Source: Balneolales bacterium ANBcel1
Lineage (GTDB): Bacteria; Bacteroidota; Rhodothermia; Balneolales; Natronogracilivirgulaceae
DNA length: 64,000 bases
Direction of reading: 5' to 3'
Assembly (NCBI GenBank): GCA_029688905.1
Contig: JARULB010000002.1
Span: 434,001 to 498,000 of the forward strand
The position numbers and the translations under genes are program-made. Below are positions 1 to 13,987 of the stretch, piece after piece. How positions within the stretch are numbered: position 1 is the stretch's first letter; each line of letters opens with the position of its first letter. Below the pieces are notes generated by a model, which was not told the origin of the DNA, did not search any database, and worked only from the letters and a program-made list of their open reading frames with translations.

Positions 1-2475
1 CAGCATTTCAAGAACAGATCGCCGGGTCAGTCCGTGTTGAATCAGGCGATCGTCGTCGGGTGTCAGAACAAAATGATACTGGTCACCCATGATGTTTGAA
101 TGAGGGGAGGCGTTTATATTGACATCCGTGACCCTTGAATGACGTTGCAGCCGGCGGCGGATCTCCCTGGCCGTTTCATCCAGCTGTTCGTAGGAGTATC
201 CTCTCAAGTTGATGGCGTTGCTCATTTGCTGTCCCCCTCCAAACCCCGTCCAGAAAGACTCTCCGTATCCGCTGACCGAGATGCCGACATTACCGGTTCG
301 TGCTGCCAGAAACGCTGCGCGCCCGAACAAAATATACGGCTCCGGCTGCCTTTGATAGCCGTCCGGGAAATAGATCTGCAGCCGGGCACTGGACCCGAGT
401 TCCGACACATGCGACTCATAGTAGTCCACCACATGCTCAAACGGCTCAACCAGCGACTCAAACTGGCGCATGATTTTGTCCAGCTCTTCGAAAGGCGAAC
501 CGACCGGCGCACGCATCCATATCGAGATGTGGTCATATTCCTGAAGACCGGCCCATCCCTCCCCAAAACGGCCCTGCTGACTGAAGCGATAAGAGAGTCC
601 GCCGATATATGGATCGATACTTTCCCGGTTTTCGAAATAGGGTTTCGATATGGTTTGCCAGGGGCCGGTACTGCCGTCTTCATCGGGTTCCGGCTCCGAA
701 ACCAGATGCAGCGGAACACCGATCAATAGCAGTAGCGCGGGATAGAGCAGCCACCGCACGCGATGGCGCCACAGGAACATTCCGAGAAGTATCCGGCCGG
801 TACGTCTACGCGGTTTATTTCTCCGGTATGTAAGGCCGGCATCGTATCCGGGTCCGTCTGAAATGCTCCCGGAAAGCGCATCGCCTGCATTGGGGTGCAG
901 TTTGCCGGAAATGCTATTGGAAGGGATATCATGGGCAGCCTGATCGAACCTGTCTGATGTGTTTTTGAAAGGCTTGCTGCCGGCGGCGGGTGCCGGGATC
1001 CTGACCAGCCAGATCAGCGCGTAAGGAATCCAGCTCAACGATATCACCACCGAAGAGACCAGGGTGAGCGTAAGGGCCATGCCGAGCGGCATCAGAAACA
1101 TACGGATCTCATCGAGGGCAAAAATGAGTGGGACAAAAATACCGACGGTGGTCAGCGTGCTTCCGATCACCGGGACCAGCACATGCGGCAGTCTGCGGCG
1201 GACATGGTCGATCCGTGCCCGGCGTGACAGCGGCAAGCCCGGATTCAGATGTTCGAACACCACTACCGCGTTGTCGATGATCATCCCGAGGGCGATGGTG
1301 AGTCCGGCCAGGGTAATCACATTGATGGTGTAGCCGAGGAATTGCAGCATAATCACTGCGAAAAGCAGGGAAAACAGGATACTTCCCAGAATGACCAACG
1401 GTGCCCGGACTTTCCGGATAAAAACCAGCAGAACCAGAAAAACACATATCAGGCTGATCATCGCCTGCCGTTCGAGCAAAGCAAGCTCCTTGCGCAGCTC
1501 CCTGGTGGCGTCCCGCTCGATTTGAATGTGGATCCCTGCCGGCAGGGCGGACTGGATTTCATCCATCCGGTCAATGACTGTTTCGGCAAGCTGCATTGCA
1601 TCGGTGCCGGTTTCGCGCTCAAACCGGATGGTAAGCGCGGGGTTCCCGTTGATGCGCATACTGGACCGTTCGGGATAATCGCTGATCGTCACATTTGCGA
1701 TATCCCCCACCCTCACCCTTCGCTCGATCCCGGACAACGGAATCGGCATGGAGCGGATATCATCGAGACTGTGCAGCCCGGGCGGCACCAGCATACTGTA
1801 TCGGATACCGGAGGCATCGTGGAAACCGGCAGAGCGATGATTCAGCCGGTCGTTAATCTGGCGCATCACCATGGGAACCGAAATTCCGAGCCGTTCCACG
1901 GCTGCGATATCAAGTTCAATCAACAAGGTGGGATCGCGAACACCGCTCAGCTCGATACCGGCGATACCCGAAATCCCTGACAGCGGCAGTTTGATGGTGC
2001 GTTCCGCCAGCTCCAGCAGTTCATGGGGCTCACGTTCGCCGCTGATGGAATAGACCAGGAACGTCTGCAATTCTCTAAGCTCCTGCGGCACCCGGCGGCT
2101 GATCCGGGCAGGCCGAACGGCAGGCGGCAAATTGCTTTCCAGCACACGCAGGTATTCTTGCAATTCTACCATTCGGTATTCGACCGGTGCCTGTTTCTGG
2201 AAGTAAATGGTTACATGGGAGACCCCTTCGCGTGAGACGGATGTCACGCGCTCGACATCCCGCAGGCGCCGTACCTGCTGTTCCACCCGTCTGGAAATCT
2301 CCTGCTCCATTACCTCCGGTGAGGTACGGCTCCAGTAATAGGTTACGGTAATACTTGGCAGATTGATTCCCGGCGACATCTCCACAGGTATCCGATGCCA
2401 TGCCACAACCCCGACCAGAATTACCATCAGGTAAAACATCGAAATCAGATATTTGCGCCGGAACAATTCGTTCAT
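1..2475 (-). CDS. RND efflux permease, second of the operon (3' end outside window)
   Basis: An open frame of 825 codons starts at ATG 2475 and runs without a stop to base 1, so the C-terminus is missing. It begins MNELFRRKYL followed by the first transmembrane helix. A large periplasmic loop (about residues 30-330) leads into the TM2-TM6 bundle. The TM4 motif GMIIDNAVVVFEH places Asp401-Asn402 where AcrB has its proton-relay Asp pair; a D-N version is common outside Proteobacteria. After about residue 510 there is a Ser/Pro/Asp-rich linker, then TM7 and the second periplasmic half. The family role is proton-driven, trimeric export from the inner membrane with a periplasmic adaptor. It lies 134 bp downstream of the adaptor gene. 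Substrate cannot be read from the sequence. Confidence 0.9.
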   Translation of the reverse strand, partial: MNELFRRKYLISMFYLMVILVGVVAWHRIPVEMSPGINLPSITVTYYWSRTSPEVMEQEISRRVEQQVRRLRDVERVTSVSREGVSHVTIYFQKQAPVEYRMVELQEYLRVLESNLPPAVRPARISRRVPQELRELQTFLVYSISGEREPHELLELAERTIKLPLSGISGIAGIELSGVRDPTLLIELDIAAVERLGISVPMVMRQINDRLNHRSAGFHDASGIRYSMLVPPGLHSLDDIRSMPIPLSGIERRVRVGDIANVTISDYPERSSMRINGNPALTIRFERETGTDAMQLAETVIDRMDEIQSALPAGIHIQIERDATRELRKELALLERQAMISLICVFLVLLVFIRKVRAPLVILGSILFSLLFAVIMLQFLGYTINVITLAGLTIALGMIIDNAVVVFEHLNPGLPLSRRARIDHVRRRLPHVLVPVIGSTLTTVGIFVPLIFALDEIRMFLMPLGMALTLTLVSSVVISLSWIPYALIWLVRIPAPAAGSKPFKNTSDRFDQAAHDIPSNSISGKLHPNAGDALSGSISDGPGYDAGLTYRRNKPRRRTGRILLGMFLWRHRVRWLLYPALLLLIGVPLHLVSEPEPDEDGSTGPWQTISKPYFENRESIDPYIGGLSYRFSQQGRFGEGWAGLQEYDHISIWMRAPVGSPFEELDKIMRQFESLVEPFEHVVDYYESHVSELGSSARLQIYFPDGYQRQPEPYILFGRAAFLAARTGNVGISVSGYGESFWTGFGGGQQMSNAINLRGYSYEQLDETAREIRRRLQRHSRVTDVNINASPHSNIMGDQYHFVLTPDDDRLIQHGLTRRSVLEML

Positions 2476-2609: not shown

Positions 2610-3767
2610 TCAGAACCGGAAACGGGGGGTTATCCGCTGCAGGTGGCTTATTGCGAAATGCCGGTCGACGGCGACCGTATCACCGGGATGGATATCCGGG
2701 TGATCGATCACCACCCATTCCGATGTACCGGCTACCGGTTCGATGTAGATCCACTCGACGGTATGGTTATTAAGGCGGAAAAGCAGCGGCCGGCCGTCGC
2801 GCTCCAGCATTGCCGAACGGGGGATGCGAGCCCGACCCTGTACCGACCTGGTCAGAATCCGTCCGTCGACCGTCATGCCGGATCGCAGTTGCCGGTCGGT
2901 GTTGTCGAACAGGGCTACAATCTGTCCGGTCTTGCTCTCCGGGCTCACCACCGGAGAAACCGCCTCAACCACCCCTTCCGTGCGATATCCGAATCCGGTT
3001 TCCAGTTCCACCCGCATGCCTTCTTCCACCGTTGCAAGTTCGCTCTCCAGAAGGTCGAAGCGCACCCGTACCTGCGAATCATCCACCAACTGCCCCAGCT
3101 CGGTTCCGGCAGCGAGGTACTGGCCCCTGGAATCATTGCGCCGGGTGTGAATCTGGCCGTCGAACGGAGCAATGAGACTCGTATAACTCAGATCCAGTTC
3201 CGCACGTTGCAGCCGCACCCTGGCCTCGGAAAGGCCGTGCACATTCTGCAGGAAGCGGATCATTTCGTCGGGGAGCTGCTCCGTCCCGGAGTTCCTCAGC
3301 CGCTGTTCCCGTTCAATGTCATAATCGGAGGCGGCTTTATCGAGCGCGAACCGGGCCTGTTTTACCGCAAGCTGCCACTCATCGTCCTGCAGGGCCAGTA
3401 TGGTATCCCCTGCTGTCACATGCCGCCCCTCCCGGATCAGGTGCCGGTCCACAAACCCGCCCAGGCGATTATAGAGCGTGACGGCGTTCAGCGGCTCCAC
3501 CGTTCCCTGGGTTTCGACATAGTGATAAAGCGGCTTGTCATCGGCAAGGTCAAAAATCACCGTCGGCAAAACTTCCCTGCGCTCGTCTCCCCTGCTCTCG
3601 GCGTTGTTCTCGTCATTCTCTCCGGAGCAGGCCGCCATCCATACAGTAACCATCAGAAATACCGCTAAAAAGGCGATACGCCGGGATGTTTTTTTTGTGG
3701 ATAAGGGGGTGATACCGCCGTTGTCTCGGGAATTGTCACTGCTGGTAGGTATGCTAAGTGGATCCAT
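2610..3767 (-). CDS. RND efflux periplasmic adaptor (membrane fusion protein), lipoprotein
   Basis: This HlyD/AcrA-type adaptor joins an inner-membrane RND pump to an outer-membrane channel. ATG 3767 is preferred over the upstream GTG at 3812 because it sits about 7 nt after a GGAAA Shine-Dalgarno-like stretch. It gives about 385 residues. A basic N-terminus and hydrophobic segment end in a lipobox (WMAAC), so it should be lipid-anchored. A barrel/lipoyl half-motif (NRLGGFVDRHLIREGRHVTAGD) precedes a helical hairpin. A second lipoyl half (SLIAPFDGQIHTRRNDSRGQ) and beta-barrel domains follow. It lies 102 bp downstream of one permease gene and 134 bp upstream of another, so one adaptor may serve two permeases. 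No TolC-like gene is visible nearby. Confidence 0.9.
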   Translation of the reverse strand: MDPLSIPTSSDNSRDNGGITPLSTKKTSRRIAFLAVFLMVTVWMAACSGENDENNAESRGDERREVLPTVIFDLADDKPLYHYVETQGTVEPLNAVTLYNRLGGFVDRHLIREGRHVTAGDTILALQDDEWQLAVKQARFALDKAASDYDIEREQRLRNSGTEQLPDEMIRFLQNVHGLSEARVRLQRAELDLSYTSLIAPFDGQIHTRRNDSRGQYLAAGTELGQLVDDSQVRVRFDLLESELATVEEGMRVELETGFGYRTEGVVEAVSPVVSPESKTGQIVALFDNTDRQLRSGMTVDGRILTRSVQGRARIPRSAMLERDGRPLLFRLNNHTVEWIYIEPVAGTSEWVVIDHPDIHPGDTVAVDRHFAISHLQRITPRFRF

Positions 3768-3869
3768 AGGGTTTCCGGATACTTGTTGAGGGATTCCAGT
3801 ATTCAATGGCACCGGTGGCGCTTTGCGATGATATGGTTTGTGTTCCGATGTGAGGGTTTCACTGTTCTT

Positions 3870-6800
3870 CTACTCTGTAGCCTCCCTTTCTTTTCCCGAC
3901 TCCATCCACCGAAACACCATTGGCACCAGGAAGAGGGTTAGCAGCGTGCTGGTCACCATTCCGCCCATTAATGCCAGGGCCAGCGACTGCCGGAATTCAT
4001 AACCGTCACCGACAGGTATGATCATCGGCAGCAATCCGAGCAGTGTGGTCATGGTGGTCATAATAACAGGACGAAACCGGTGTCTGCCGGCCATGGTAAC
4101 CGCCTCATCCAGTCGGCCGGTCTCTTCGAGGTATCGCCGCATGAAATCGACTTTGAGGATGGCGTCGTTGACGGCGATTCCCGTGAGCACCAGAATCCCC
4201 ATAAACGAAAGGATATTGAGGCTGAGGCCGGTTGCCCATAGCAGCAGCAGTGAGCCGATCCATGCGAAAGGAACACCAAGCATGATAATAAGCGGGTATT
4301 TCAGGTTTTCGTACTGGATAGTGAGAATCATGTAGATGAGGATCACGCTGATTAGCAGCAATCGGGCCATATCGCGCAGCAACGACTCTATCTGGATCGC
4401 GGTGCCGGAGAGACTTACATCCAGGCCGGTCTCCAGCCGGAACGCTTCGACGATTTGCCGGAAGTCGTTTTGCACCCACCACCACTCGGCCAGGCCGATA
4501 TTACCCAGATAACTGAGCACCGGAGTCTGGTTGATACGTTCAATCTGTTCGGGCTCGGTCACACGTTCGATACGTGCCAGCTCGGCAAGCCGGATGGATC
4601 GGCCCCGGCTGGGTATCCGGATATCGGTCGGGTCAAAATGGCCGACGCCCTGCTGATAGAGCCGGACATCGATATTTTCATCTTCGTGCAGCCACTCGGT
4701 GATCATAGTACCTCGCGCAGCCGACTCCAGAAAAGAGATGACCTCTATTTCGGTCATACTGTAACGAAGAAGCTGCTCCGGACGAAAATGCATTTGCCAG
4801 GTTTCCACCTCTTCCGCGTGTTGAAGATCGAATTGCCAGTCGGGGTTGCGTTCCGACATCCTGGCTCGTAACAGTTCCATACCTTCGGCGCCATCATTGC
4901 GATCCACACCGGTAATATGGACGATGACCGGCGCCGCCTGACGCCCCAGAAAGTTTTCAAAAAGCGGCAGGGCATCCAGCGGTTCGAAGCGCCATTGAGG
5001 ATGCTGTTGTTGCAGTAAACGGATGTGATCACGGATTTGGCCGGCCTGTTCCGGTGACTGTAACGGGATATCCAGAATAAAGCGATTCATGCCTTCTTCG
5101 GCCAGCCGGGTGATGTTGGTGTCGTCGGTATAGCCCCCGATGGTGAGCATCGGCCCGATGCCCTCAAAACCTCCGTTCTGTGCGGCTCCACCCCGACCGG
5201 AAGCGCCGGTTGGGCCGGCTTCCTCCCTCACACCGATCCCTGCGGAGTTCTGGTTATGGTACAGGGATGTGGTGATGGCTCTTGCAGCTTCCTGTGTCGT
5301 TCGAAGCGCGGTATTTCCGGGAAGGACGACACGGTAGCGAAGCCGCTGCTCTTCCCCTTGGGGAATGAGTTCTTTCGGGATGAAAAGAAACGAGAGCACG
5401 GCAAGCAGCAAGGCCGTCATGAATAGAGAGATGACCAGGAGCGGCCGGCGCAGGCTGAAAGCCAATAACTGCTCGTACCGTTTCAATGCATGCTCCATAC
5501 CCCGGGTAAACATGGTGCCGCTTTCCGGTGCGTCGGGGTCGGATTTCGCTGCGGCGGGATCGGATTCGGTGGAGCCCTCCCTTTTCGTTCGGCGTTTGCG
5601 AAACTGGAGAACCAGTACCGGAATAATGAGCAATGCCACAAGCAGAGACGAGAGCAATGCGATGGAGAGCGTAAGTGCCTGATCCCGGAAGAAGGCGCCC
5701 TCAAAACCGCCAAGAAAAACCAGGGGCAGAAAAACCGATATGGTGGTCAGGGTGGATGCCGTGATAGCGAGAGCAATCTCTCTGGTACCCTTTCCGGCCG
5801 CTTCGAACAGGGGCAGGCCGGCTTTTCGGTGGCGGTTGATGTTTTCAAGCACCACTATGGCATTGTCAACCAGCAAACCAATACCGAGAGTGAGTCCGCT
5901 CAGGGAGATAATATTCAGCTGAATGCCAAAAAGATACATCACGAAGAAAGTCAGCATAATACTGACCGGGATCGCGACACCAATTGTGAGGGGGCTTCGC
6001 GGGTCGTTCAAAAAGAAAAAAAGTACAAAAAAGGCGAGCACACCACCAATTAACAAGGTTTGAAGCAGGTTGTCGATGGACTTCTCGATAAAGGTGGCGT
6101 TTTCGGTGAGTACTTCCAGGGAAATTCCGGGGAATTGCTGCCGCAGTTCTTCCAGTACCGGCACCATTTGATGATAGACCTGCACCAGGTTGCTGTCGAA
6201 ATCTTTTTTTACCAGTACAGAGAGAATGGGGCGTCCGTCGATCATGGAAAAGGAGACCGGGTCGCGCTCATCCATTTGCACATCGGCAACATCCTCAAGA
6301 CGTAGTATGCGTTCTCCGCCGATTCTTTTAAGCGGCAGGCGCCGGAGCTGTTCAATCGAAGCGATACGACTTTCCACTTTTAGTGAATAGCGGTACCAGC
6401 CGTCGCGCAGTTCACCGGTTTGAGAAAACATATTTGCTTCGGTGATACGTGCCCGGATTTCGGCAACAGACAGACCGTACCGGTCGGCCAGGTGGGGATG
6501 ATATCGAATATGCACTTCGGGGGTGACGGCGCCTACCACAACAGCCTGCGCAATACCGTCTTCCAGTTCGAGCCTTCGGGAAAGTACCCGGTCGGCCCAC
6601 TGCTTAAGCTGGAGCCGTTCGTGATAACCGGGGTCGGGATTATCTTGCAAGCGAACCCCGAGTACAGCAACCGGTTCATCTCCCGGATCCGAGTAAACCA
6701 GCTGGGGGCGTTCGGCTTGCTGTGGCAGGCGAACCCGAACCCGATCGAGTGTTTCCCTGGCATTCAGAAATGCCAGATCCATATTGTGTCCCCATTCAAA

Positions 6801-7067
6801 CTCCAACGAGACAAAGCCGATGCCCTGTCTGGCGAAGCTGCGCGTTCCTTTTAAGCCGGGAAGTGTTCCAAGGGCAGCTTCAAGCTCCTCATTGATCCGG
6901 GTTTCCACTTCGCTTGCTGAAGCTCCGGGCCATTCGGCACGCACCATCAGCGACGGCACATCCACATCCGGAAGCAGGTCCACCGACAGCTCCTGAAGCG
7001 CGATATATCCGAAGATAAACGTCGCAAGAACAAGCATCAGAGCGGTTATTGGGCGCTTAAGAAGCAT
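3870..7067 (-). CDS. RND efflux permease (AcrB/HAE family), first of the operon
   Basis: This is a full-length RND transporter of 1065 residues, the usual size for the family. The N-terminus MLLKRPITALMLVLATFIFGYIA forms TM1. Typical porter-domain signatures follow (LPDVDVPSL; WPGASASEVETRI). TM4 has GLLVDNAIVVLENINRH, with Asp401-Asn402 at the proton-relay position, and TM10-TM12 contain VLTGIAVNDAILKVDFMRR. A charged linker after TM6 (about residues 490-525, rich in Asp, Glu, Ser and Pro) marks the internal duplication. It is the first gene of the efflux operon (permease, adaptor, permease). A GCTTAAG/CTTAAGC inverted repeat lies about 50 bp upstream. Substrate is unknown. Confidence 0.93.
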   Translation of the reverse strand: MLLKRPITALMLVLATFIFGYIALQELSVDLLPDVDVPSLMVRAEWPGASASEVETRINEELEAALGTLPGLKGTRSFARQGIGFVSLEFEWGHNMDLAFLNARETLDRVRVRLPQQAERPQLVYSDPGDEPVAVLGVRLQDNPDPGYHERLQLKQWADRVLSRRLELEDGIAQAVVVGAVTPEVHIRYHPHLADRYGLSVAEIRARITEANMFSQTGELRDGWYRYSLKVESRIASIEQLRRLPLKRIGGERILRLEDVADVQMDERDPVSFSMIDGRPILSVLVKKDFDSNLVQVYHQMVPVLEELRQQFPGISLEVLTENATFIEKSIDNLLQTLLIGGVLAFFVLFFFLNDPRSPLTIGVAIPVSIMLTFFVMYLFGIQLNIISLSGLTLGIGLLVDNAIVVLENINRHRKAGLPLFEAAGKGTREIALAITASTLTTISVFLPLVFLGGFEGAFFRDQALTLSIALLSSLLVALLIIPVLVLQFRKRRTKREGSTESDPAAAKSDPDAPESGTMFTRGMEHALKRYEQLLAFSLRRPLLVISLFMTALLLAVLSFLFIPKELIPQGEEQRLRYRVVLPGNTALRTTQEAARAITTSLYHNQNSAGIGVREEAGPTGASGRGGAAQNGGFEGIGPMLTIGGYTDDTNITRLAEEGMNRFILDIPLQSPEQAGQIRDHIRLLQQQHPQWRFEPLDALPLFENFLGRQAAPVIVHITGVDRNDGAEGMELLRARMSERNPDWQFDLQHAEEVETWQMHFRPEQLLRYSMTEIEVISFLESAARGTMITEWLHEDENIDVRLYQQGVGHFDPTDIRIPSRGRSIRLAELARIERVTEPEQIERINQTPVLSYLGNIGLAEWWWVQNDFRQIVEAFRLETGLDVSLSGTAIQIESLLRDMARLLLISVILIYMILTIQYENLKYPLIIMLGVPFAWIGSLLLLWATGLSLNILSFMGILVLTGIAVNDAILKVDFMRRYLEETGRLDEAVTMAGRHRFRPVIMTTMTTLLGLLPMIIPVGDGYEFRQSLALALMGGMVTSTLLTLFLVPMVFRWMESGKEREATE

Positions 7068-7186: not shown

Positions 7187-8293
7187 TCACCCCCTGGTTT
7201 TTGTTATGTGGTCACGAAGCTCATAAACTCCAATTACGATTTCATCGGCTTCAAACGTATCAATGAAAAACAACCGGTTTCGGTCGCTGTCCACAGCGAT
7301 GGGGTGGTATGGAATTGATACTTCGGTTATGTATTCATAGTCATTGGTCCTGTCATATATGGATAGGAAAAAAAACATTTTTGATAAATCATTGTCAGCC
7401 GCTCCCTGCTTTGTCAAATTGTAAAACCTGAACACCAGGTAGTCTTTAGTTATAAAAGGTGAATCCACAATACTTTTCTCCAATGCAACATTCATTCTTT
7501 GTTCCATACTATGTTCCATTCGCATAGGGGTATCACTCATTAAAAAATTGGGAGATTGGTAACCAAATCTGCCGACATACTCGTAGTCATTATCAACATC
7601 AAATATTTTAAAATACGGAATGATAATATGTGTAGTAATGATAGTACGACTGTACTTATCCAAAGCCATAAATGTATGCCTCATCATGTCATCTAACTCT
7701 TTTATATAGTATTGATCAATACGACCGTACTTTTTAAAGTATGTGAAGCTACTATCCATTTTTACGAAGGTTGATATATCTTTCATATCCATGTTAAACC
7801 ATCCCGGTTGTTCCATGGATATATAATAGTAGTTATCAAGATGATAGATATAATTACCCCTCTTCCAGATCCGACCTAATGTCACTGGCTCATACGTGTT
7901 TATCAGTTCGCCATGGCGAGAAAATGTTTTGACAAGTTGATTCTGATGATCATATACCAGGATATTACACTCCAAGTCCATTCCTATATTCGATGTCGCC
8001 AGCAACTCTTCTGGTCCACGTCCCTCTACGCCAAAGCTCGATATGAGCTCTCCCTCCATGTCGACGACGAGTATTTTTTGACTGCCACGATTGACCAGCA
8101 AAAGCAACTCATGTTTACTGCAATACAACGAATTATAGCTAATCTCTCCAAGAATTTGAGTAACATCCTCACTCAGTACGATCGCATGCACCTTATCGGC
8201 GATGTCATCAAGTGTTCCGCCTGTATCAATTACTTGTTCTTTTGAACAACTAATAGCTATAATTACAGTAAATATAACAGCGATTTTTTTCAT
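7187..8293 (-). CDS. 6-bladed beta-propeller lipoprotein
   Basis: This 368-residue protein starts with a short lipoprotein signal (MKKIAVIFTVIIAISC; Cys16 in the lipobox). The rest shows repeated beta-propeller-like blade motifs, including LLLVNRGSQKILVVDMEGELISSFG, LVYDHQNQLVKTFSRHGELI, IFDVDNDYEYVGRFG, YDRTNDYEYITEVSI and DRNRLFFIDTFEADEIVIGVYEL. This matches the Bacteroidota 6-bladed beta-propeller lipoproteins of unknown function, which are often encoded next to small secreted peptides. The gene is AT-rich relative to its neighbours. It follows the small-peptide gene at 8379-8606, separated by a perfect hairpin. A surface receptor or binding partner for the peptide is possible but is inference only. 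Confidence 0.8.
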   Translation of the reverse strand: MKKIAVIFTVIIAISCSKEQVIDTGGTLDDIADKVHAIVLSEDVTQILGEISYNSLYCSKHELLLLVNRGSQKILVVDMEGELISSFGVEGRGPEELLATSNIGMDLECNILVYDHQNQLVKTFSRHGELINTYEPVTLGRIWKRGNYIYHLDNYYYISMEQPGWFNMDMKDISTFVKMDSSFTYFKKYGRIDQYYIKELDDMMRHTFMALDKYSRTIITTHIIIPYFKIFDVDNDYEYVGRFGYQSPNFLMSDTPMRMEHSMEQRMNVALEKSIVDSPFITKDYLVFRFYNLTKQGAADNDLSKMFFFLSIYDRTNDYEYITEVSIPYHPIAVDSDRNRLFFIDTFEADEIVIGVYELRDHITKTRG

Positions 8294-8310
8294 ATCGAAA
8301 AGCCAGTTAG

Positions 8311-8350
8311 ATCTTTAAAGCGACCTAAAAATATAGGTCGCTTTAAAGAT
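8311..8350 (-). repeat. Perfect 17-bp intercistronic hairpin
   Basis: ATCTTTAAAGCGACCTA (8311-8327) is repeated in perfect inverted order at 8334-8350 with a 6-nt loop. It lies between the secreted-peptide gene and the propeller gene. No long T-run follows on the minus strand, so it is not a classic terminator. An mRNA-stabilising or expression-splitting element between two cistrons is the likeliest reading. Confidence 0.75.
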
Positions 8351-8366
8351 ACATTAATATAGTTCA

Positions 8367-8402
8367 TGCTTCTTGAACTCAAGGTTGATCTGCTTCATGA
8401 AC
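8367..8402 (-). repeat. In-frame echo of the small-peptide 3' end
   Basis: GTTCATGAAGCA (minus strand, 8402-8391) encodes the V-H-E-A near the end of the peptide. It recurs as GTTCAAGAAGCA at 8378-8367, immediately after the stop, with 11 of 12 bases identical. The offset is 24 nt, so it is in frame, and a TGA follows the echo. Confidence 0.55.
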
Positions 8403-8606
8403 TGGACCACCAGGGCCTCCAGGCAATGGACTGGATTCACAAATGATGCATCGATTACCTTCACCAGCACAATCTTGACCTGGAATCCAATCCTTTGTAG
8501 TAGTACTTTCACAAGCATAAGCATCATTTGCACTTATATGAATTCCACCAAAGACCAGCATCATTGAAAAACACATAATCTGTATACTTCTCTTCATCGT
8601 TTTCAT
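8379..8606 (-). CDS. Small secreted Cys-containing peptide (NVEALA-like arrangement)
   Basis: The 75-residue product has a clear Sec signal: basic MKTMKR, a hydrophobic core, then a probable signal peptidase I site after NDAYA. The mature part begins CESTTT and carries four Cys (residues 32, 46, 53 and 56, the last two as CIIC), followed by a Gly/Pro-rich tail. The cleavage-region sequence ANDAYACE loosely resembles the NVEALA peptides of Bacteroidetes, which also sit next to 6-bladed propeller lipoproteins. That link rests on context and weak similarity. An AGAGAAG Shine-Dalgarno-like stretch precedes the ATG. It lies 63 bp downstream of the AraC-type gene and is probably co-transcribed with it. 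A secreted signal, structural peptide or modified peptide are all possible. Confidence 0.7.
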   Translation of the reverse strand: MKTMKRSIQIMCFSMMLVFGGIHISANDAYACESTTTKDWIPGQDCAGEGNRCIICESSPLPGGPGGPVHEADQP

Positions 8607-8669
8607 AACACTTCTCTTTTTGTTATTATTTATTTTTCATAACAATCCGACATTCATCAAGATTGTTGT

Positions 8670-9122
8670 TTAGAGTATAGTATCATAAACTACAAACATG
8701 TGTGAATAAATACGTGAATTATCCCCCCCATTTTTATTATGATAAATGGATGGATATATCCCATAATATCTGAAAAAAGCCTTTGAAAAGGTACTCCTGT
8801 TACTGTAACCAACATATACAGCCAGAATCATTGTATTTACCACCCCTTTGTCTATTAATTTTTTTGCCATCTCCATGCGTAGTTTGGTAATATAAAACTT
8901 TGCTGTTACGCCAACGTCTGCATGAAATCTTTCACTCGTTTTTTTTCCAAATCCAGCTTTTTTCGTCAACCAGGCTATTGTCAACTCTTCTGAATTTAAA
9001 TGAGTGTGGATAAGGTCGATCCACTCCACCACATCATACCGGTATTTTCTGTTCTTTTCTCCATACTTCTTGATGACATAACGTTTTATCCTCTCCACTT
9101 CTGAATTGCTATAATGTACCAT
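8670..9122 (-). CDS. AraC-family DNA-binding protein, HTH domain only
   Basis: The 150-residue protein contains a double helix-turn-helix AraC domain in its C-terminal two-thirds: ELTIAWLTKKAGFGKKTSERF for the first HTH and AVYVGYSNRSTFSKAFFRYY followed by GIYPSIYH for the second, which fits the family consensus. There is no ligand-binding N-terminal domain, only about 45 residues. The gene is AT-rich and transcribed toward the secreted peptide and propeller genes, so it probably controls them. It could also be a truncated derivative of a longer regulator. Confidence 0.85.
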   Translation of the reverse strand: MVHYSNSEVERIKRYVIKKYGEKNRKYRYDVVEWIDLIHTHLNSEELTIAWLTKKAGFGKKTSERFHADVGVTAKFYITKLRMEMAKKLIDKGVVNTMILAVYVGYSNRSTFSKAFFRYYGIYPSIYHNKNGGDNSRIYSHMFVVYDTIL

Positions 9123-9141
9123 AAAGCCAGTTTTGCAAGTT

Positions 9142-9438
9142 TTACGTTCGAACAGTATGTGTCAATCTGCCTGTATATCGCTCACTCCGGGAGAAATATG
9201 ATTTGGGCGACACCAACAGGCGCTCTCCTGACCGGTTATCCACAATACAGATAGCAGCATTGTTGTTGGCAGCAAAGTGAATGAATAGCAACACGGTAAA
9301 GCAGTGCTTTTCATCAAAGTCATCCAGGTCCCCAAGCCGGAAGAACTCCTGTAATGTGCAGGAAATCTCCTGCCAATGGATAAAGCCGGCCTTTACAAGT
9401 AATAAAATGGCATTAAAGCAGAACAGTTTTAGTAACAA
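9142..9438 (-). other. ATG-less open frame of unknown identity
   Basis: This 98-codon open frame has no ATG. A TTG at 9438, two codons after an in-frame stop, would be the only start. The residues (FFRLGDLDDFDEKHCF, then FAANNNAAICIVDNRSG) look protein-like and codon use is reasonable. It ends 20 bp before the AraC-type gene in the same direction. It may be a decayed gene remnant or a small gene with a rare start. I do not recognise the family. Confidence 0.3.
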
Positions 9439-9830
9439 TATCTCTTATTGTGGCATTATACAGGACGTTTCGGCGCATTTCTATGCTAGGTAGAGACCCT
9501 CACCGGCAATTCCTTACATTAGTAATTCTTAATAGTTCAATTTCTCTCTCAACCTTTCGATTTCCCCGGTATCGCGAATTCCAGTACGCCTCATGCCGTC
9601 ATAAGCATGCTCAGGAGTCCGGTCACACCTGTTCAGAATTCTGTCACTGTTGTCTCATTGCCGGGGTGTCAGGCTTTTAATCAGCGACAGCGCTTGCAAA
9701 TACTATTCTCTCCGAATTCCTGAAAACCCGGCCGCTTCATTCGTGCTACCGGATTCTCCTGCCATTTCGGGTTTTTCCGGGTTGCGATCCTGCCGGCAAA
9801 TCCACCCGGGCACTTTGGTCACGGTTCGGG
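9439..9830. other. Gene-free stretch at the edge of the AT-rich patch
   Basis: No convincing coding frame, tRNA or terminator was found. Base composition changes from AT-rich on the left to GC-rich near holA, consistent with an insertion boundary. No inverted repeats or target duplications typical of a mobile element were recognised. Confidence 0.5.
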
Positions 9831-12757: not shown

Positions 12758-13987
12758 CATCAATATTGTTTCGGTCATCTGGTCTTCATCAAAAAACGTT
12801 GCACAAAGATCGCGAATTTGTCCGGAATCCGCACGATCAATTTCGGCTACAAGTTCATCCATTGTGATGTAGCGGTCATAAAATATCTCACTTTTCGCCA
12901 GGCGGGTCATCCGGCTGCTCATGCTCTCCTGGGCCAGAAGCATTTTGCCCTTAAGCTGCGATTTGGCCTCTTCCAGCTCTTTCTCGGGGATCGGCTGTTC
13001 CCGCAAGTTCCGGAGCTCGGTGAGTATCAGCTCTCTTATGTGGTCGACGTAGCCGCGGTCGGTGCCGGTGTAGATCCCGAACAGACCGCAGTCGCGAAAC
13101 GCCTCCATGAACGACTGGATGTGGTAGCAGTACCCGTATTTTTCCCGGATGTTCTGATGGAGCCTGGAGCTCATGCCCGAACCGAGCACCGTATTGGCAA
13201 GCAGCAACTTGTAGCGGTCGGCATCCGTGGCCGAGAGCGCCCGCCTGCCCATCATGAAGTGGGTCTGTTCGATCGGGCGTTTCAGGACCGTGCTGCCGGC
13301 CTTGTACGGGGTGATCGGCTGGTCTCCGTTGCCCTGGAAATCCCGCTCCAGCGGCTGGAAGTATTTTTGAACGAGCGCCACCACCCGGTCGTGCTCGGCG
13401 TTGCCTGCAACAGCGATGATGACGTTGGAGGGGTGATACTGTTCGTGGAGGTAATCAAACAGGTCATTCTGGGCAAACTTGTTGACTGTAGATTCATACC
13501 CGATGATCGGCCTTCCGAGCGGATGGGGCTCGAACAGTTGCTTGTGGAACTCCTCGAAAATAAAGTCTTCCGGATTGTCCCGGTACATTTTCATCTCTTC
13601 GATGACCACTTTCTTCTCTTTCTCTATCTCCTCTTCCGGAAACCGGGAGTGCAGCACCATGTCGGTGAGCACGTCCAGGGCGGTATCCAGCTCGGTATCC
13701 AGACACCGGGCATAGTAGCAGGTCATTTCCGGCGAGGTGAACGCGTTCAGGTAGCCGCCGACCGCCTCCATGCTCTGTGCAATATCATACGCCGAGCGTC
13801 GCTCGGTGCCTTTGAACAGCATGTGTTCCAGAAAGTGGGTGATGCCGGCCGCCTCTTCTTTTTCGTGCCGACTTCCGGTTTTCACCCAGATACCGGCAGA
13901 GAGGCTGCGGACCGTTCGGATGGTTTCGGTGACAATGCGCAGGCCGTTGGGCAGTACGGTTTTTTGAACGCGGTCTGGTGTACTCAT
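12734..13987 (-). CDS. M16 family zinc metallopeptidase
   Basis: Pitrilysin/processing-peptidase family, 417 residues, typical for the single-chain bacterial form. The inverted zinc motif HxxEH is HFLEH at residues 51-55. The downstream glutamates lie in EEEIEKEKKVVIEEMKMY (about residues 120-135). The second inactive domain contains QTHFMMGRRALSATDADRY and LGSGMSSRLHQNIREKYGYCY. The bacterial family includes YmxG-like peptidases next to pnp, as here. It may act on peptides in the cytosol or envelope; no signal sequence is visible. Its 3' end is duplicated downstream. Upstream lies a start-less repetitive frame and the pnp terminator. Confidence 0.93.
   Translation of the reverse strand: MSTPDRVQKTVLPNGLRIVTETIRTVRSLSAGIWVKTGSRHEKEEAAGITHFLEHMLFKGTERRSAYDIAQSMEAVGGYLNAFTSPEMTCYYARCLDTELDTALDVLTDMVLHSRFPEEEIEKEKKVVIEEMKMYRDNPEDFIFEEFHKQLFEPHPLGRPIIGYESTVNKFAQNDLFDYLHEQYHPSNVIIAVAGNAEHDRVVALVQKYFQPLERDFQGNGDQPITPYKAGSTVLKRPIEQTHFMMGRRALSATDADRYKLLLANTVLGSGMSSRLHQNIREKYGYCYHIQSFMEAFRDCGLFGIYTGTDRGYVDHIRELILTELRNLREQPIPEKELEEAKSQLKGKMLLAQESMSSRMTRLAKSEIFYDRYITMDELVAEIDRADSGQIRDLCATFFDEDQMTETILMPEDGGIA

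Follow-up and report, generated by a model that had tools for sequence, protein, structure and literature searches.

AT-rich peptide-propeller cassettes linked to one RND operon of the Balneolales and exchanged at its locus

Closest described systems

Among known loci, the uncharacterised NVEALA-peptide/propeller locus of Bacteroidales comes nearest in kind. There, a Sec-signal peptide (NVEALA, PF14055) directly precedes a propeller lipoprotein of the TolB_like/6-bladed type, as is also the case in the locus described here, which lies in a window of 64,000 nucleotides from Balneolales bacterium ANBcel1. The two share a similar A-x-A cleavage-site motif (NVEALA, and NDAYA in the window). As in the Balneolales, an S26 signal peptidase is present in some NVEALA loci, and the peptide-propeller gaps that were tested all folded into strong hairpins (5/5, z of -3.2 to -6.9). 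These gaps came from L195, L197 and L194/L196; an S26 gene belonging to the locus itself was observed at L195:13835-16224 (confirmed by Pfam) and L197:3293-6176 (read by eye). In contrast to the window, the NVEALA loci examined had no RND operon and no AraC protein of the window subfamily. The window differs further in a peptide without PF14055 and a propeller without a PF15869 match. In the literature searched, we found no description of this arrangement, no mention of NVEALA and no assigned function for the recurring peptide-propeller pairs of Bacteroidota.

Bacteroidetocins are disulfide peptides of Bacteroidota, and the full activity of these four-Cys peptides needs a thiol oxidoreductase and a transmembrane protein (PMC6671954). 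They are likewise short, with dedicated redox and transmembrane genes, and bacteroidetocin-like double-glycine versions accompanied by a PCAT were present in related Balneolales loci. However, the window peptide has a Sec signal and no double-glycine leader, and no PCAT, transmembrane protein or thiol oxidoreductase adjoins it; the propeller, the AraC protein and the RND pump are extra to the bacteroidetocin arrangement.

The best mechanistic analogue for the export proposed below is the E. coli enterotoxin STII, which passes through Sec and Dsb and is then exported by MacAB-TolC (PMC5985334). The proposed order would be the same, with Sec translocation, signal cleavage, disulfide formation and a tripartite pump acting from the periplasm. 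The STII pump is a MacB-type ABC transporter, however, whereas that of the window is an RND pump, and STII is an analogue rather than a relative. MdtABC-like two-permease RND pumps likewise pair two RND genes with a single adaptor gene; the window operon differs from them in its RND-MFP-RND order, in the attached peptide and propeller genes, and in an adaptor subfamily found only in Balneolales among the sampled genomes.

The window cassette and its components

The original prediction described an AT-rich, co-directional set of AraC-type gene, peptide gene, hairpin and propeller gene at 7187-9122, and all of these were present as read (Table 1). The genes and the strand of the proposed three-gene unit were upheld. 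Its end at 7187 was not, as RND1 starts on that strand 120 bp 3' of the propeller and the RND-adaptor-RND operon continues the co-directional run. The set was also incomplete in that it overlooked this operon, the maturation genes of relatives, the swapping of cassettes and the other peptide systems linked to AraC genes. RND1 and the MFP were assigned as an RND efflux permease and a HlyD/CusB-type adaptor from above-cut-off matches to PF00873 (ACR_tran) and HlyD_D23, respectively.

Table 1. Features of the cassette and the adjoining operon, in window coordinates.
Feature	Coordinates	Strand	Details
AraC-type HTH protein	9122..8670	-	150 aa; HTH_18
Small secreted Cys peptide	8606..8379	-	75 aa; Sec signal predicted by eye
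RNA hairpin, 40 nt	8350..8311	-	17-bp perfect stem, 6-nt loop; peptide-propeller gap
Beta-propeller lipoprotein (NHL-like)	8293..7187	-	368 aa
RND1, AcrB-type RND permease	7067..3870	-	1065 aa; PF00873 654.5 bits
HlyD/CusB-type membrane-fusion (adaptor) protein, MFP	3812..2610	-	400 aa; PF16576 (HlyD_D23) 70.2 vs 30 bits
RND2, second RND permease	2475..1	-	ORF; extends beyond window edge
Stretch without credible gene	9123..9830		Upstream of AraC gene; cassette/backbone transition

The GC content was 0.37-0.38 across 7.0-9.5 kb, compared with approximately 0.55 in the rest of the window, and was back up to 0.54 by about 9.5 kb. The cassette genes had a GC content of 35-41%, and the adjoining pump genes 55-58%. 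The 0.7 kb upstream of the AraC gene separates it from a DNA-polymerase-III-delta-like gene, and no second copy of this stretch was found in the window's own genome. An open reading frame within it (9142-9438, 98 aa) was considered as a second peptide and judged spurious or decayed.

The AraC-type protein matched HTH_18 (PF12833) with 45.3 bits against a Pfam cut-off of 33.6, and no other domain was identified in the Pfam search, in keeping with its description as HTH-only. As a single-sequence search across the phylum was too shallow, a profile was built from four short AraC proteins. This identified approximately 40 short relatives in the Balneolales, including Fodinibius, Gracilimonas, Balneola and Rhodohalobacter, of 125-190 aa and with an N-terminal extension. 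The same HTH was also present in hybrid regulators of roughly 1300 aa, which are distinct from the short relatives. In 39 non-redundant short-AraC loci, all with enough downstream sequence, the next three genes included a Cys peptide in 23/39, a propeller in 20/39 and both in 19/39. The rule used to call Cys peptides gave a background of 3/49 in the window, every one due to the cassette locus, and no other plausible case was seen across the 64 kb. The expected conservation of the AraC-peptide-propeller triple in related genomes was thus borne out, and the short AraC protein, proposed as a dedicated regulator, proved to be a recurrent partner of peptide and propeller.

Other members of the short AraC family precede double-glycine-leader Cys peptides, peptidase-containing ABC transporters, radical-SAM/M50 clusters, a LanC-like gene and C39-VKOR-thioredoxin fusions (domain names of neighbours were read by eye where Pfam did not confirm them). 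Given this variety of peptide-related genes downstream, the family as a whole tracks small-peptide systems. At L018:4600-9472 and L053:2500-6566, a short AraC gene is followed by genes for radical-SAM/SPASM-like, peptide, M50-like membrane and carboxypeptidase-regulatory-like proteins (by eye); the peptides are of 56-60 aa with a common core KPWICG..., and these sets are possibly an undescribed type of RiPP cluster. The genes that follow the short AraC gene of L057 (6665-7072; also in L123) encode a LanC-like protein, a 260-aa product that by eye is glycosyltransferase-like and a double-glycine Cys peptide (MNVKEEDVLNRDEMKSIMAGSG...). Propellers and double-glycine Cys peptides are the recurrent neighbours of a protein of 544 aa (L054:3734-5368, L085:3209-4843, L057:584-2218), whose N-terminus by eye is C39-peptidase-like; in the L054 copy, Pfam identified VKOR and thioredoxin domains. 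A second family of AraC-like HTH proteins, of approximately 100-135 aa, was observed in peptide-propeller-RND loci without the window-type AraC (L139:17197-17586, L140:16351-16755, L143, L144, L136, L130).

Inspection of the 75-aa peptide by eye agreed with the predicted Sec signal, four mature cysteines and Gly/Pro tail. The Sec-type signal ends in ...ISANDAYA with the cut placed before C, and the mature part of 44 residues (CESTTTKDWIPGQDCAGEGNRCIICESSPLPGGPGGPVHEADQP) contains cysteines at 32, 46, 53 and 56 and a Gly/Pro-rich tail. The hydrophobic signal ending in AYA contains no double-glycine leader, no peptidase-containing ABC transporter was among the genes labelled over the window's first 20 kb, and the peptide had no match in Pfam or NCBIfam, including any bacteriocin family. 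The suggested relationship to NVEALA (PF14055) did not hold: the peptide had no match at E<=10, and the family had no member above the cut-off in 129 Balneolales genomes, so that PF14055 failed as a bridge to the cassette peptides. The adjacency is nevertheless of the NVEALA type, with the propeller starting 85 bp 3' of the peptide, and analogous peptides occupy the same position in relatives.

The propeller protein begins MKKIAVIFTVIIAISC, a plausible lipobox that is consistent with the predicted lipoprotein. The suggested membership of PF17170 (DUF5128/6-bladed) was not supported, with a score of 20.3 bits against a cut-off of 22.9. The profile of the protein matched NHL domains in the PDB, and in a predicted model (pLDDT 74, pTM 0.79) the top Foldseek matches were DUF4221 and NHL propellers, with E-values of about 1e-10 to 1e-9. 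The best PDB fold match was a DUF4221 protein of Bacteroides (3s9j, TM 0.61). The lipoprotein thus has an NHL-like beta-propeller fold, as judged from the model, probably with six blades. Propeller folds of the DUF4221/NHL kind commonly bind ligands, peptides or RNA. A search of GTDB contigs with single-sequence patterns of the window propeller recovered no relatives, and an alignment (A3) tried for contig scanning was dropped as too divergent; relatives were found by HMM searches and with the adaptor protein as an anchor. In Balneolaceae bacterium ANBcel3, the corresponding RND operon adjoins a propeller with 53% identity to that of the window. Eight genomes contained 2 to 54 propeller copies each, with only two in the window's own genome.

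The strong hairpin noted between peptide and propeller is real and recurrent. In the window it folded with z = -6.0, and 0/200 dinucleotide shuffles folded as well. Across the loci, 30/36 peptide-propeller gaps had a stronger fold than their shuffles (z < -2; median -4.2), compared with 2/19 AraC-peptide gaps and 4/63 gaps between the propeller and the next gene (P = 3e-15 for 30/36 vs 4/63). The stems vary in sequence and lie approximately 11 nt past the peptide stop and 16 nt ahead of the propeller start. A U-tract, defined as at least 5 U within the first 8 nt after the stem, was present in just 8/35 loci and not at the window hairpin, where the next letters are UAACUGGC; an intrinsic terminator was rejected for most loci on this ground. 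As it recurs in both orders examined, the hairpin offers a sequence-independent handle for finding peptide-propeller loci.

Linkage to the RND operon and exchange of cassettes

Pump loci were gathered by the adaptor, and their genes were labelled with profiles. The adaptor ortholog was present as a single copy in 59/129 Balneolales genomes; at the cut-off used, none was found outside the order in 396 sampled genomes of the phylum. The RND1-MFP-RND2 order was conserved across loci. A same-strand propeller lay within 3 kb upstream of RND1 in 29 of the 35 testable loci, and an opposite-strand propeller in none (0/35), against a chance expectation of about 0.6% from the propeller background of eight genomes. 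The co-direction of all 29 with RND1 has P = 4e-9, a value to be read with the phylogenetic relatedness of the loci, whose counts are not independent events. Downstream of RND2, a same-strand propeller was seen in 16/33 loci.

Other RND genes of the eight genomes served as a control. A propeller lay within 5 kb of 1/68 and within 10 kb of 4/68 of these, compared with 12/16 focal RND genes (5 kb) and 8/8 focal operons (10 kb; P = 3e-8 for 8/8 vs 4/68). Two of the eight focal propellers are part of the background profile and are therefore favoured in this test; the other six operons are independent of it. The peptide-propeller cassettes are thus specifically linked to one RND operon.

The cassettes were also found co-directional between RND1 and MFP (L017, L129, L134). 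Same-strand maturation genes were identified in 14/58 RND loci (S26 in 8, MauE in 8, C39-VKOR in 4, DsbA in 1), and six loci showed the order MauE - peptide - propeller - S26 signal peptidase - RND1 - MFP - RND2 (L117, L119, L139, L140, L143, L144). Neither a disulfide gene nor a signal-peptidase gene is linked to the cassette of the window. Some RND loci had no peptide gene detectable by the criteria used, one (L093, genome G002), close to the end of its contig, had an S26 gene and no propeller beside RND1, and no TolC gene was linked to the pump loci; such absences are weak, since many loci lie on short MAG contigs. Many short-AraC loci and many propellers were located away from the RND1-MFP-RND2 operon, so the pump is not obligatory for all cassettes.

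Cassettes are exchanged at the pump locus. RND1 was 94-98% identical across loci whose neighbouring propellers share 22-27% identity. Between the Balneola loci L138 and L140, the flanks were 93% identical in DNA and the RND1 proteins 97% identical; L138 has three propellers where L140 has an AraC-like gene, MauE, a peptide, a propeller and a signal peptidase, and the nearest propellers of the two were 27% identical. Similar contrasts, with near-identical pumps beside different cassettes, recur. In 47/47 loci the accessory genes had a lower GC content than the pump genes, with a mean difference of -10.5 points, and the AT-richness is therefore a property of the module and not the mark of a one-off import.

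A repeat of approximately 105 bp, with about 80-91% identity between copies, borders swapped cassettes in Balneola (L138:1985-2095, 4628-4734 and 13822-13926; also L137, L139 and L140). It may be a recombination mediator or a common genus-specific intergenic repeat. Neither the window nor the loci of other genera yielded a copy, and flanking repeats were rejected as a general mobility signal.

Possible function of the cassettes

The reading that we favour, as plausible though short of probable, is an exchangeable module for a Sec-translocated disulfide peptide whose cargo would have the propeller as cognate partner and would leave via the RND pump to which the cassette is linked. The cassette forms an exchangeable AT-rich unit at the head of the conserved Balneolales operon RND1-MFP-RND2 and would be activated by the HTH-only AraC protein. 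The peptide would cross the inner membrane by Sec and be cut after the AxA site, in relatives by a signal peptidase I of their own, as the signals and S26 genes present there suggest. Its four cysteines would form disulfides, a chemistry that the MauE, DsbA-like and C39-VKOR-thioredoxin genes of relatives may serve. The hairpin, most simply read as a stabilising or processing element that sets the peptide above the propeller, may keep peptide mRNA abundant relative to the propeller if it protects the upstream transcript or partly separates it. The propeller lipoprotein could hold the mature peptide in the periplasm or at the outer membrane, and RND-MFP-RND, together with a TolC-type channel encoded elsewhere, would drive the folded peptide from the periplasm. 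Linkage and co-orientation point to such transport; the lack of a nearby RND operon in the Bacteroidales NVEALA-propeller loci examined argues against it. A common pump core with swapped cargo is as might be seen under selection for peptide diversity, most likely in strain competition.

More tentatively, the system could be one of dedicated RND-driven secretion of Sec-translocated, disulfide-bonded ribosomal peptides, in which the constant RND-MFP-RND pump is the shared exporter and swapped cassettes generate peptide diversity for competition. It is equally tentative that the swapped AT-rich cassettes would then each comprise a cargo peptide, its cognate propeller, maturation enzymes and an HTH-only AraC protein.

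A hypervariable, swapped cargo at a fixed locus would also suit a bacteriocin with self-protection, whereby the toxin peptide leaves by another route, the propeller sequesters it and the RND pump clears it from the periplasm. Double-glycine Cys peptides with PCAT/HlyD exporters occur at the same kind of locus, the propeller is directly 3' of the peptide in most cases, and the layout of regulator, precursor, lipoprotein and pump resembles lantibiotic clusters. While the bacteroidetocins show that Bacteroidota make disulfide peptides, their producers have no obvious immunity gene (PMC6671954). The window peptide matches no bacteriocin family and many propellers have no called peptide, and we consider the bacteriocin explanation unlikely. 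Rather unlikely, in our assessment, is a mere genomic hotspot at which insertions beside the RND operon are tolerated and the cassettes do not work with the pump. The AT-rich swapped content between near-identical flanks, the genus-specific repeats at cassette borders in Balneola and the occurrence of cassettes elsewhere in the genomes would all fit this; however, it does not lead one to expect that 29/29 upstream propellers are co-directional with RND1, that co-directional cassettes lie even between RND1 and MFP, or that cassettes bear peptide-maturation genes, unlike random islands.

The tight linkage to one RND operon only, and a possible common location of the pump adaptor and the lipoprotein propeller in the periplasm, led us to consider a pump accessory or envelope sensor, with a periplasmic peptide and propeller that tune the pump or report its load and an AraC protein linking this to expression. 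A conserved regulatory contact predicts the opposite of hypervariable cargo beside a near-invariant pump, and the presence of PCAT exporters and of genes for peptide maturation speaks for secretion, which makes this account improbable. The original prediction had suggested signalling, adhesion or peptide export. Export is best favoured by the neighbouring genes; adhesion found no support, and the propeller is at most a candidate receptor. In a signalling system, the peptide would be a secreted pheromone, the propeller its surface receptor and AraC the response regulator, for which the dedicated regulator beside the peptide and the pairing of sequence-diverse peptides with lipoproteins would be apt. 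The AraC protein is HTH-only, however, with no sensor or membrane domain, and the cassette has no signal-transducing membrane protein; a lipoprotein at the surface has no link to the cytoplasm, and we regard signalling as very improbable.

In the Balneolales version of the locus, peptide-propeller pairs acquire testable partners in the form of a single pump, a regulator, a signal peptidase and disulfide enzymes. The cassettes beside this one multidrug-type pump of salt-loving bacteria suggest a way of making disulfide peptides and exporting them that has gone unrecognised. If the pump does export peptides, the secretion of gene-encoded peptides would be added to the natural roles of RND pumps, and the swapped cassettes would be a mineable source of disulfide peptides.
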